From NCBI GenBank assembly GCA_905235955.1, contig CAJONN010000014.1:1-17751 (forward strand): a stretch of 17,751 nucleotides of DNA, in the 5' to 3' direction. The DNA comes from an uncultured Marinilabiliaceae bacterium. Lineage in GTDB: Bacteria > Bacteroidota > Bacteroidia > Bacteroidales > Marinilabiliaceae. The position numbers were made by a program, and so were the translations under genes. A model generated the notes under the pieces. The model was not told where the DNA came from. It saw only the letters and a program-made list of their open reading frames with translations, and ran no database searches. Shown piece by piece: positions 5,241 to 15,289 of this stretch; the first letter of the stretch is position 1; each line of letters starts with the position of its first letter.

Positions 5241-6239
5241 CTATGCGTTTCGCTCAGTTTCGTTGTTGATATGTGTAAGCATTGGGTTGGCAGCCAACTC
5301 TTTATTGTTCTTACGATTGCGATAGGTATCGATAGCTAAGTAGAGAGCGTTTCTGAACGAGTCGCACGGAGCCACATCTTGTCCGGCAATGCTATATTCT
5401 ACGCCATTGATAGGTGCAGTGATGATATTGTCGATTCCGGCAGTAAAAATAGCACCGTTGTCTGACGCTAAAGCCTTGAGAGGTGCAACACCTTGGTCGT
5501 AGTACATTGCTAAGACAGCATCAAACTTATAAGCATCGCCATTGCCAAAGAGAGCATCGGCGGTATATGGACCCATAGCATATATTTTCTCATCGCTAAC
5601 GGCATTGATGGCTGGTGCAATGATGTTTTCTTCAGTTTCGCCTGTTTGTCCTTCAGGGTTGAGGCTAAGCACAGCAATGCGTGGACGACGAATGGTGAAG
5701 TCTTGCTTCAGTGTCTTGTCTATAATGCGAATAGCATCAGCAATACGCTCAGTGCTAATGTATTGTGCAACGTTGGCAAAAGCTACATTTTCTGCAACAA
5801 CGCCTATTTTGAGTTTGTTGCTAATGTAAAGTTTCAAACCCTTATTGCTCAGAGCATTACCATTCATTGGAGCACAAACCAAAGCATCTATCTTGCCAGC
5901 TTCAAGGTCGGCTTTGGCGGTGTTGAGTGCAATATTGGCAGCCTCTTCAGCAAACTGACTTTTTTTGCCTATTTCAACATGAATGTTATCGTCGCCCGAA
6001 GTTACAATGTTGACGCGCTTAGGGTGTGCCTCTTGCGCCTCTTTGATGCTATTGATGCTAAAATTTTGTATGTTGAGCATTTTGCGATGATAGGCAGCAG
6101 CTTTGGGCGAACCATAGATGATGGCTGTAAAATGTTCGCATATATCTGGTTCTGAAAGAGTTTTCAATATCATTTCGTAGCCAATGCCGTTTACATCGCC
6201 TTGCGTTATTCCTATTTTTATTTTCTGTTCTTCTTCCAT
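5241..6239 (-). CDS. PdxA-family protein lacking the metal-binding histidines
   Basis: The 332-residue protein aligns with PdxA, the 4-hydroxythreonine-4-phosphate dehydrogenase of vitamin B6 synthesis. Family hallmarks remain: KIGITQGDVNGIGYE (residues 8-22), YGSPKAAAYHR (42-52), LVCAPMNGNAL (120-130), RIAVLSLNP (187-195), GPYTADALFG (223-232), AMYYDQGVAPLKA (244-256) and DSFRNALYLAID (293-304). PdxA enzymes bind a catalytic divalent metal through three histidines, and none is found here. The FPGHTE segment is absent, with the ~25 residues after the 'API/MN' motif collapsed to about ten. NPHAG is changed to NPEGQ (194-198), and MYHDQG to MYYDQG (245-250). The usual S-x-x-HGTA motif is also replaced (APINGVEYSIAG, 275-286). 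The frame is open and full length apart from the deletion, so this is not simple decay. It follows the DUF4837 gene by 24 bases, probably one operon. No pdxA symbol is given because activity is doubtful. Confidence 0.85.
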   Translation of the reverse strand: MEEEQKIKIGITQGDVNGIGYEMILKTLSEPDICEHFTAIIYGSPKAAAYHRKMLNIQNFSINSIKEAQEAHPKRVNIVTSGDDNIHVEIGKKSQFAEEAANIALNTAKADLEAGKIDALVCAPMNGNALSNKGLKLYISNKLKIGVVAENVAFANVAQYISTERIADAIRIIDKTLKQDFTIRRPRIAVLSLNPEGQTGETEENIIAPAINAVSDEKIYAMGPYTADALFGNGDAYKFDAVLAMYYDQGVAPLKALASDNGAIFTAGIDNIITAPINGVEYSIAGQDVAPCDSFRNALYLAIDTYRNRKNNKELAANPMLTHINNETERNA

Positions 6240-6263: not shown

Positions 6264-7292
6264 TTATTCGTTGTTATTCACTGTAAGTGTGTACATTATG
6301 GCTTCAAGTTGCCTTATGAGATTGCGTTTTTTGTCTTTGCTGGGATAGTATACAAAGCCATCAGTAACTATGATACGATTGTTGATAGTGTCATGATGTG
6401 CACGCAACAGAAATGGGCCACCCATAGCATAACCTTCCATGCGCCATAATCCGCGCAATTCAGCTATGTCCATACCATTGTATTTGCCACTATTATAGAC
6501 TATTTCGTCGAGTCCGAAGCGTGTTTCAGTGCACATATATGAGCCTGCCGGACCTTCAATATTGGCTTTGAGTAGCGAGTCGCGTTGGCTAAGTAGGTAT
6601 GGTATAGTAAGCGAACTTTCATCAACATAAGGCAAGCTATAAATCAAAAGGTTGATGTTCGATTCATCGGTGTCTATTCTTACCCACGACATATCGGTTT
6701 TGTTTTTGGGACTACACCGGCTAAATGTATTTGGGATAGAAAGCGTTACGCCCCATTGCTTAGCTATTTCTTCGCATAGTGCTATGTGTGGCACTCGTTT
6801 GTTGTAGGCTATTTGGCGGTCGCGTTCCAACTTGGTTATGAAGCTAACTATCTTGATATGATTGCTTTCGATGAGTGGCAAAAGGGCTTTTTTGTTGTTA
6901 GCTCGTATACTAATGTAGGCTTGTGGTTGTGCCCACATATTGTTGTAGCAAGCCACTGTGTTGGTGCTAATGGTGTCGTTTACAACTACGTCGATGATAT
7001 TTCGGAAGGTGCTCATCACATCGTTGAAGTAGCCGTGTGGCACAGTTTGCATATCGAAAAGTGGTTCTGGAGCCGACAAGCCTAAGACGTTTTCGGTGAG
7101 TATGCTTGCTAAATATCTGCCAGCTGTGTCTGATTTTATGTCGTCGTTGATAACTACAAGCACTTCGCCGTTTCGGCCTGTTACACTTGGTTTGAATGCA
7201 TCAGAGTTTTGTGTTGTTGTTTGTTTTTCGCACGAACAGAGTGTTGCAATTGTTGTTGCAACAAACAAAACTGACGATATAAGTTTTTTCAT
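6264..7292 (-). CDS. DUF4837 family lipoprotein
   Basis: The 342-residue product resembles the DUF4837 family, found in Bacteroidetes and of unknown function. The N-terminus is a lipoprotein signal: positively charged MKK, a hydrophobic core (residues 4-18), then lipobox LCSC with the acylated cysteine at residue 21. The residues after it (EKQTTTQNSD) are polar with little acid clustering, so periplasmic-side anchoring and surface exposure are both possible. The mature part begins with the family-typical TGRNGEVLVVI segment (about 39-49); later segments include the tryptophan- and glycine-rich LRGLWRMEGYAMGGPFLLRA and a C-terminal GFVYYPSKDKKRNLIRQLEAIMY. A -7 box lies 27 bases upstream, and the downstream PdxA-like gene starts 24 bases after the stop, so the two are likely transcribed together. 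Function cannot be inferred from sequence. Confidence 0.85.
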   Translation of the reverse strand: MKKLISSVLFVATTIATLCSCEKQTTTQNSDAFKPSVTGRNGEVLVVINDDIKSDTAGRYLASILTENVLGLSAPEPLFDMQTVPHGYFNDVMSTFRNIIDVVVNDTISTNTVACYNNMWAQPQAYISIRANNKKALLPLIESNHIKIVSFITKLERDRQIAYNKRVPHIALCEEIAKQWGVTLSIPNTFSRCSPKNKTDMSWVRIDTDESNINLLIYSLPYVDESSLTIPYLLSQRDSLLKANIEGPAGSYMCTETRFGLDEIVYNSGKYNGMDIAELRGLWRMEGYAMGGPFLLRAHHDTINNRIIVTDGFVYYPSKDKKRNLIRQLEAIMYTLTVNNNE

Positions 7293-13177: not shown

Positions 13178-15289
13178 TTATTTGGCTACTATGTCGGTAA
13201 GAAATTTCAAGTCGTGAAGTGATATGTTGTTGGCATCGAACGAGAGACGATAGCGTGCATAGTCAGCACAAGCGTCGATTGATGCGTGATTTTCTGTTTT
13301 TTCTAGTGCTTCGATGGCAGCTGTTGTATTATGAGCGCACAGATATACGTAGGCAGCTATTGTGAGGTGCTGTGGGTTGGTTGCGTCGGTGCGCGATATG
13401 TAGCGTATGGCATCGGCTCCTTTGCCTACTATGAGCATGTAGTTGGCTACTTTGTATGCTGTTGTGGCAGTTGGTTGCAAGTAGTCTATTTCATACATCA
13501 GTTGCAAGGCTTTGGCATATAGGTTTGCTCTGGCGTAACAGTCAGATAGTTGTTGTTTTAGTTCGATGTTGGTGGTATCGAGGGCTATAAGTTCTGAGAG
13601 GCATTGTGCTTCGTTGTCAGTAAGTTGCAAAAAGCGGTAGCAACGGGCGCGCATTTTGAGGCTCCATGTTGTTTGTCCGCTGATGCATTCAAGTTTTTGT
13701 AGCAGTGTGAGTGCTTGCTGACAGTTATCTTCGGCCATATAGCAGAAGATGAGTTTTTTGATGTATTGTGCAGTTTCTTGTTCGGGCTTTACGCCTAAAT
13801 ATATGTTTTTGGCTATGGTGTATTGCGACTGATGCCCCATATAGTCGGCCAATATTTCGCGCTCGGTGGGTAAGAATGAGATGTGAAATAGGTCACTGGA
13901 CAAGAATTGTGACAATGCTTCGAATGGATTGACAAATTCTTTGCGGCGTGGATAGACGTAGAAGAGGCGATAGAGGTCGCGAATATACTGGTCGGCAATG
14001 CACTGATGCGAACCGAATGAGAGGTCGTTGTTGTCGTTGGCTTCAGTTACGGCTTCGAGTTCGCGAGTGTACATTTCGCAGATGCTTTCGCGCGAAGTGG
14101 TTGGGATGAATGAAAACGACATTAATATTGAGTATTTGTCTGATTCGCAGAGTACTGGTGCCAATCTGACGCCTTCAAGAAATGATTTGCGATAGATTAT
14201 AGGTATGGCTTCAAGTGCTTTGACGAGTGCGGCATTGCATTCGTCAAAAGGCATAAGCCAACTGCTTATTTCTATAAAGAATTTGTAATCTTTCAGATGC
14301 GAGAATGTTGACAGGAATACGTCAGCACCTTCCATTTGCCACTTCATTAGCTTGTTGAGGCTTTTTTTGAGGTGTTTGTCTTCGCCTGTCATTTCGTCCC
14401 AATCTATTTCGTGTAGTGAGTGCAGTCCTTTGTTATTTTTGACTGATAGTATGGTTGGGGTAACATCGGTGAGCATTTTTTCTGTTATATCGCTCGTTTG
14501 CACTGTTTTGAGTATTGCCATCAAGGCTATTGTGAGGTCGCGCTTGTGTGGCATACTGTTCATCATGCTTGTCCATTGTGCCCAAAGTTGGTTTTCGTTT
14601 TTTATACGGTCAGCATGTTTCACTACACATAGCATTGCGCCGGCTATAGCTTTTGAGCGTATTGTGTTGTTTTGTGCATCAGAAAGCGAGAATAGCATTG
14701 CTATGTATTGCGGAATGAAGCGTTGCGAGGCGGCTAATATTATTGCTCCGAGTATTAGTGTGCGGTCTTCGGTGCGAGCTTCGGTATTGTTTATGAAGTC
14801 TGCAATGGTGTTGCAAAGTTCGCTATTGGGCATGAATGACCAAACTATATCAAATAGGTGTCGCATAGTCAGTTCCATTTCAACTGGCAATGTGGCAGGT
14901 TGTGGCATTTGGTCGAATAGGCTCTTGCTTTTGAAGTAGGAGGCTATATACATTGTAGCTTCGGTGGGCAAGAGGTTTTTCTGATTGCGATAGCGTATGT
15001 GAATTGAGTCAGTTTTGATGGCTTCAATGTCAGCCCATTGATATATTATGTTGTAGAGATCAGTGAGGACTTTGCTATAAATGAGGTTGCGCTGTGGGTC
15101 GGTGCTGCTGTTTTTGTAGAATTCGAGTAGCGATGAATAGGTATATTCTACGCTTGCCAACTTATCATCGAGGCCAGATGCTGACCACGATGTTTTGTTG
15201 CGCAGCTCTGACATTAGCTCATGAAGTCGGCCTTGATCAGCCAATGTTTCTAAGGCTATGATTGTTGTTTTTATATCTGATAAATCCAT
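13178..15289 (-). CDS. Large TPR-like helical repeat protein
   Basis: The 703-residue protein has no enzymatic motif. It is helical throughout. The C-terminal ~200 residues show tetratricopeptide-like pairs of helices, for example QYIKKLIFCYMAEDNCQQAL, NIELKQQLSDCYARANLYAK and LTIAAYVYLCAHNTTAAIEA. These are typical of protein-protein interaction scaffolds. No signal peptide or membrane helix is present, so it is probably cytosolic. I believe similar long TPR proteins occur in other Bacteroidales, but I can name no studied member. It starts with MDLSDIKTT, and the stop is 15 bases from the HD phosphohydrolase start, so the two are almost certainly co-expressed and may act together. A possible -7 box with one mismatch is upstream at 15333-15340. 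Confidence 0.85.
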   Translation of the reverse strand: MDLSDIKTTIIALETLADQGRLHELMSELRNKTSWSASGLDDKLASVEYTYSSLLEFYKNSSTDPQRNLIYSKVLTDLYNIIYQWADIEAIKTDSIHIRYRNQKNLLPTEATMYIASYFKSKSLFDQMPQPATLPVEMELTMRHLFDIVWSFMPNSELCNTIADFINNTEARTEDRTLILGAIILAASQRFIPQYIAMLFSLSDAQNNTIRSKAIAGAMLCVVKHADRIKNENQLWAQWTSMMNSMPHKRDLTIALMAILKTVQTSDITEKMLTDVTPTILSVKNNKGLHSLHEIDWDEMTGEDKHLKKSLNKLMKWQMEGADVFLSTFSHLKDYKFFIEISSWLMPFDECNAALVKALEAIPIIYRKSFLEGVRLAPVLCESDKYSILMSFSFIPTTSRESICEMYTRELEAVTEANDNNDLSFGSHQCIADQYIRDLYRLFYVYPRRKEFVNPFEALSQFLSSDLFHISFLPTEREILADYMGHQSQYTIAKNIYLGVKPEQETAQYIKKLIFCYMAEDNCQQALTLLQKLECISGQTTWSLKMRARCYRFLQLTDNEAQCLSELIALDTTNIELKQQLSDCYARANLYAKALQLMYEIDYLQPTATTAYKVANYMLIVGKGADAIRYISRTDATNPQHLTIAAYVYLCAHNTTAAIEALEKTENHASIDACADYARYRLSFDANNISLHDLKFLTDIVAK

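Follow-up and report, generated by a model that had tools for sequence, protein, structure and literature searches.

The nearest known system to the protein described here is PdxA, the 4-hydroxythreonine-4-phosphate dehydrogenase of vitamin B6 synthesis (E. coli entries 1ps6 and 1ptm; 1yxo from PA0593). To the same superfamily belong the PdxA2-type D-threonate 4-phosphate dehydrogenases (6e85, 2hi1) and the terephthalate cis-diol dehydrogenase (4aty and the 8zj series), which share their predicted fold with the window protein; the window denotes the whole stretch of DNA that was analysed, 17,751 nucleotides in length. PLP is also made by a DXP-independent route via PdxS and PdxT, which are unrelated to PdxA. 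General text on the B6 pathway is contained in the excerpt of PMC8427247, and a pathway rule in the excerpt of PMC6593275 sets PdxA in brackets, which we read as optional.

Two symbionts outside Bacteroidota illustrate the fate of pdxA. In Blochmannia obliquus, pdxA, pdxB and pdxJ are all pseudogenes according to the excerpted text of PMC4389277, and for Ca. T. hoelldobblerii the excerpt of PMC6044324 states that homologues of pdxA and pdxJ were not found. In these two cases, which serve as an illustration and not as a survey, pdxA goes with the pathway as far as these excerpts tell. A transposon-sequencing study (PMC3547785, in excerpt) judged the pdxA gene of P. gingivalis to be essential in vitro, and rows on its expression and methylation are found in PMC10470040. 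Since proteomics rows in PMC12119571 list PdxJ for P. gingivalis as well, this essentiality is suggestive only and not decisive. Among the matches listed from the open-access literature, subscription papers being outside the scope, there was no PdxA pseudoenzyme.

The window gene and its active site

The pdxA homologue of the window is an open reading frame that starts with ATG, runs from 6239 down to 5241 and encodes 332 amino acids without an internal stop (Table 1). Its product matches the PF04166 PdxA profile over its full length with 205.8 bits (cut-off 27), and it scores 191.3 bits against the TIGR00557 pdxA equivalog, which is below the required 290.35. The earlier note had described a protein that is PdxA-like throughout and encoded by an open frame, and both points were borne out; its strand detail needs correcting, as the gene sits on the minus strand. 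Within the window, pdxA is the last gene of its same-strand run, and its retention by polarity on a downstream gene is therefore ruled out.

Residue numbers refer to E. coli K-12 PdxA, which was aligned to the window protein. At eight functional positions, H136 and T137 have no counterpart, H166, H211 and H266 are replaced by N, E and Y, and N283 and R292 are both replaced by I; K274, equivalent to K255 of the window protein, is the sole survivor. In E. coli PdxA, the metal is bound by H166, H211 and H266, while H136 of the GHT motif contacts the substrate and is not a metal ligand. All three metal-binding histidines are thus absent from the window protein and, among the substrate residues, H136, T137, N283 and R292 are absent as well, leaving only K274. 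In terms of motifs, FPGHTE is deleted together with its loop, NPHAG has become NPEGQ, MYHDQG has become MYYDQG, and DHGTA, which we assume to be the NAD-adenine loop of PdxA, has become INGVE.

These motif changes had been noticed before and agree with the alignment. The accompanying claim that every metal histidine is gone also stands, but the FPGHTE histidine had been named as a ligand, whereas the real third position is H166, occupied by N151. Histidines occur in the window protein at positions 36, 51, 72, 87 and 323 only, and none lies between residues 88 and 322, the span that holds the active site. Thus, no displaced histidine substitutes for the lost ligands; shifted histidines at the metal site, one of the outcomes that would have overturned the earlier claim, are rejected. 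The best reading of the product is a PdxA pseudoenzyme, in which the catalytic residues are lost according to the alignment and the rest of the fold is predicted to be conserved.

Table 1. Features of the window around the pdxA homologue.
Feature	Position	Strand	Basis
Metal-less PdxA homologue (putative pseudo-PdxA), 332 aa	5241..6239	minus	
Codon 151, Asn at the E. coli PdxA metal-ligand position H166	5787..5789	minus	alignment
Codon 196, Glu at the E. coli metal-ligand position H211 (NPHAG to NPEGQ)	5652..5654	minus	alignment
Codon 247, Tyr at the E. coli metal-ligand position H266 (MYHDQG to MYYDQG)	5499..5501	minus	alignment
Substrate-loop deletion junction, codons 127-136; the GHT motif and its surroundings, about 19 residues, absent	5832..5861	minus	
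Codons 264-273, Ile at each end for the E. coli substrate residues N283 and R292	5421..5450	minus	alignment
DUF4837 lipoprotein-like gene, 24 nt directly upstream of pdxA	6264..7292	minus	PF16125, 257.8 bits

For close relatives, 163 listed database proteins were considered, comprising the best 120 of 7149 and 43 new ones from a second search. At least one metal histidine is lost in 27 of the listed proteins and all three are lost in 18. Nine relatives with 65-90% identity (P0003-P0011) all lack the loop, H166 and H211, and eight of them also lack H266, which is retained in P0007. The occurrence of the same loop deletion in nine relatives makes a sequencing or assembly error unlikely, in line with the earlier view. 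In P0012 and P0013, only H136 and N283 are changed among the eight positions, and hence intermediate states exist.

The DUF4837 gene adjoins pdxA in 13 of the 15 genus genomes. Among the PdxJ-less genomes fetched elsewhere in the order, it was seen beside pdxA in G186 and G206 only, by an ORF scan that is greedy and that overlooked even the pdxA of G006 and of G073; an M17 aminopeptidase takes this place in G083, G173, G234 and G235. As the adjacency is not universal, DUF4837 was rejected as an obligate PdxA partner. A search of the open-access literature on DUF4837 found no paper. A further frame of the window, 703 residues long (13178-15289), is without any Pfam match.

Vitamin B6 synthesis in the window's genome and genus

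The window's genome (G000) has a size of 2.18 Mb and is 81.3% complete. The PF04166 search returned a single match in this 81%-complete genome and thus no second canonical PdxA, and there was likewise no PF03740 match for PdxJ. Contig C40 carries on its plus strand an operon (L073:6646-9196) that encodes a Phos_pyr_kin protein, followed by PdxS (PF01680, 362.7 bits) and PdxT (PF01174, 184.1 bits). Based on one PdxA, no PdxJ match and the kinase-PdxS-PdxT operon, B6 synthesis in this organism looks rerouted, and the presence of PdxS and PdxT in an operon suggests that PLP is probably made by them. This replacement route would make PdxA and PdxJ dispensable for B6. The earlier expectation that B6 synthesis must be broken or rerouted if the window carries the only pdxA copy is supported by these data, within the limits of an 81%-complete genome.

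The Phos_pyr_kin protein of the operon is 373 amino acids long and has a C-terminal AraC-type HTH fusion. Such a kinase joined to a DNA-binding domain could be a candidate for a self-contained B6 regulator.

Among the 15 genus genomes, the profile search found PdxJ absent from G000, G059, G060, G063 and G064; G063 and G064 are 84-85% complete and G059 is 97% complete. PdxS was found only in G000 and G060 among the 16 genomes searched. In the PdxJ-less G060, only H136 and N283 of the eight residues are changed, which looks like an early stage of active-site loss as judged from these residues. The organisms of G059, G063 and G064, genomes in which neither PdxJ nor PdxS was found, may consume B6; each of these genomes has PF08543-family kinases, some of which may be thiamine enzymes. 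The PdxA of G062 (L051, L078) is devoid of H166 and H211, with a full PdxJ still present. Thus, active-site loss can come before PdxJ loss.

Recurrence and selection across Bacteroidales

The order was surveyed by an even draw of 199 Bacteroidales genomes, all of them at least 95% complete except for G000, which was included. PdxA is present in 198 of the 199 genomes and PdxJ in 178, with the match of G192 below the cut-off. All 21 PdxJ-less genomes of the survey keep PdxA (G255 being the 21st). Fifteen of these 21 genomes have a best PdxA E-value weaker than 5.4e-99, in contrast to none of the 176 in which PdxJ exceeds its cut-off and PdxA has a match (Fisher 4.7e-18, relatedness ignored).

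The same contrast is seen at the active site. At least one of the eight residues is changed in 25/26 PdxJ-less versus 2/51 PdxJ-positive sequences (Fisher 7.6e-17, relatedness ignored), and at least one metal histidine is lost in 19/26 versus 1/51 (Fisher 2.3e-11, relatedness ignored). The 51 PdxJ-positive sequences come from 42 of the 63 family genomes with both genes and from 9 others of the order, and they are a biased sample consisting mostly of best-scoring loci. G192 is counted as PdxJ-less in these residue counts (n = 26), because its sole PdxJ match (1.3e-4) does not reach the cut-off. The counts leave out every database protein (P ids) as well as the second PF04166 gene of G031 (L061), a PdxA2-like paralogue with 31% identity.

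A tree was built leaving out the eight active-site columns. PdxJ state changes 11 times on this tree, and at least 6 changes are forced by well-supported branches. For the six supported sister pairs, any change in the eight residues goes the expected way in about 4, the opposite way in 0 and is equal in 2 (median p 0.125); for the metal histidines the corresponding values are 2.7, 0 and 3.3 (median p 0.25). In seven families (f2, f5, f35, f42, f43, f47 and f61), PdxJ-positive and PdxJ-less genomes stand side by side. Active-site loss in PdxA seems to have happened repeatedly across the order.

Some genomes depart from this pattern, among them G062 with its degenerate PdxA alongside PdxJ. All three metal histidines are kept in 7 of the 26 PdxJ-less genomes, and in one of them, G191 (95% complete), the active site is unchanged; its PdxJ may lie in the unassembled part of the genome. 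PdxJ is present without a PdxA match in G263, G027, G032, G044, G295 and G402, the last of which is 99% complete and belongs outside Bacteroidales. In the PdxJ-positive G203 (L094), the pdxA match holds two in-frame TAA codons, which reflect either a broken gene or a sequencing error. Many of these cases may be due to gaps in the assemblies, and others may be true exceptions to an essential second role. Outside the order, PdxA scores are normal in the four genomes that lack PdxJ (G280, G320, G346 and G399). Conversely, the survey of the class shows weak PdxA matches in PdxJ-positive genomes outside the order, namely in G321 (E 4.1e-61, positions 38-284) and in families f120 and f133, with G305, G338, G390, G292 and G357 at E 3.4e-84 to 1.7e-87. 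Thus, the score alone is no proof of a dead site.

Selection was assessed on loop-deleted forms. The loop deletion is common to G000, G063 and G064, so that the divergence among the three most simply postdates it. Their states are not identical, as G064 retains H266. Between G000 and G064, the pdxA genes differ by 0.196, 0.151 and 0.601 at the first, second and third codon positions, and the adjacent DUF4837 genes by 0.250, 0.176 and 0.604. No exact ratio is claimed, because synonymous change (dS) is saturated. At the level of codon comparison, these values show strong purifying selection on the loop-deleted forms, and the constraint on pdxA is like that on its neighbour DUF4837. When the window gene was mutated at random, 107/300 runs remained stop-free at 90% identity, 12/300 at 71% and 11/300 at 67%. 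The comparison of G000 with G064, in which H266 is kept, thus gives the purifying selection in an inactive state that is expected of a pseudoenzyme. The earlier proposal of selection for a non-dehydrogenase role instead of decay gains support from these codon-position differences and from the recurrence; the role itself is an inferred one.

The pattern of conservation was analysed in a degenerate group of 22 sequences, which comprises those with at least three changes among the eight residues and G062. Conserved positions (98) were those with at least 95% conservation among sequences that retain the full set of eight. Of the 98, 47 are kept in the degenerate group (at 75% or more) and 18 are lost (35% or less). 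The lost positions comprise 16 within E. coli residues 113-290 and two beyond 290, with none in 1-112, a segment in which 14 of 19 conserved positions are kept. Among the positions kept although E. coli differs are, in window numbering, N17, K26, K46, Y50, R52, K53 and N77 towards the N terminus, and Y300, D304 and R309 of the C-terminal helix. Two of them, K26 and K46, also occur beyond Bacteroidales, as both are shared by the Burkholderia protein 4jqp in the alignment, and Bacteroidales-specific positions were not retained significantly better than universal ones (p 0.105). From PdxA structures, we take the kept N-terminal segments and the C-terminal helix to pack as one domain, apart from the active-site groove.

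Candidate second function and rival explanations

A dismantled B6 enzyme that is kept by a gut-type bacterium in which PdxJ was not found, together with the apparent recurrence of this state in the order, suggests an unrecognised second job of the protein. Our favoured explanation, to which we give a probability of roughly 0.7, is that the PdxA pseudoenzyme is retained owing to a second function, non-catalytic in nature, which PdxA would have in Bacteroidales. This function would not need the dehydrogenase site. A lineage would abandon the PdxA/PdxJ route of B6 synthesis either by gaining PdxST, as in the window's genome, or by becoming a B6 consumer. PdxJ would then disappear and erosion would set in at the metal and substrate positions of PdxA, while the predicted fold and a set of non-catalytic positions stay under selection, as the sequence comparison shows. 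Most probably, the PdxA chain would serve for binding or as a scaffold by means of domain 1. The segments proposed for this are the N-terminal strands and helices (residues 10-77, for instance N17, K46, Y50, R52, K53 and N77) together with Y300, D304 and R309 of the C-terminal helix; these residues are conserved in active and inactive forms and are different in E. coli. We lean slightly towards the further view that Bacteroidales PdxA, the active form included, carries a non-catalytic second function, probably an essential one, which predates the repeated losses of B6 synthesis. The metal-less clades would expose this function, because only it remains in them.

The strongest rival explanation, itself unlikely, is a new enzyme, i.e., a PdxA whose old cleft has been adapted to another reaction that needs no metal. 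The retained predicted fold is compatible with this, as are the presence of K255 (E. coli K274), D248 and Q249 and the existence of PdxA relatives named for other substrates, such as the D-threonate 4-phosphate and terephthalate-diol enzymes. However, the replacement residues vary among lineages, and a non-systematic look noticed no recurring replacement set, whereas convergent chemistry should give a recurring signature. Furthermore, the same loop is shortened in G000, G063 and G064, in G220, in G214 and in G142, and the presumed NAD-adenine loop DHGTA is also degraded in the window protein.

Slow decay after pathway loss, which would make pdxA a pseudogene on its way out that has not yet acquired stops, is very improbable. 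The absent PdxJ and the eroding active site would fit this scenario, and G203 does carry a pdxA with stops, though PdxJ is present there. Against it, the loop-deleted forms diverge mainly at third codon positions, with much smaller differences at the first and second. In addition, the pdxA frame is open and at least 326 amino acids long in all 26 PdxJ-less genomes that were read, some of them on very long branches. Even G142 (L109), a genome of 1.2 Mb that is 99% complete, keeps PdxA, in an extremely diverged form that scores 44 bits for PF04166 and has its substrate loop shortened.

The idea that the protein still works in B6 synthesis by an unusual mechanism, PdxJ being located in a region that is missing from the assembly, draws on the 81% completeness of G000 and on the PdxJ alongside a degenerate PdxA in G062, but it has the slimmest chance of all, given the loss of the metal, substrate-phosphate and loop residues (K274 excepted), the absence of PdxJ also from the close relatives G063, G064 and the 97% complete G059, and the presence of PdxS and PdxT in G000.

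Should the proposed second function of PdxA prove true, an enzyme known from textbooks for vitamin B6 synthesis would have a role so far overlooked in a dominant order of gut bacteria, and the lineages devoid of PdxJ would set this role apart from catalysis. The name PdxA would then wrongly imply B6 synthesis in a number of genomes, and pathway rules that count PdxA should consequently demand PdxJ, too.

Different from canonical PdxA, the window protein is without the metal histidines, the GHT loop and the equivalents of N283 and R292, it stays under the TIGR00557 cut-off, and PdxJ was not found in its genome. The PdxA2 sequences 2hi1 and 6e85 keep NPHAG and MYHDQG, in contrast to the window protein, which lacks those histidines. 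A conserved fold, lost catalytic residues and purifying selection are features of pseudoenzymes in general, and the window protein resembles them in these respects. Pseudoenzymes are known as a kind, while one derived from PdxA, with repeated origins alongside the loss of PdxJ, seems to be new.
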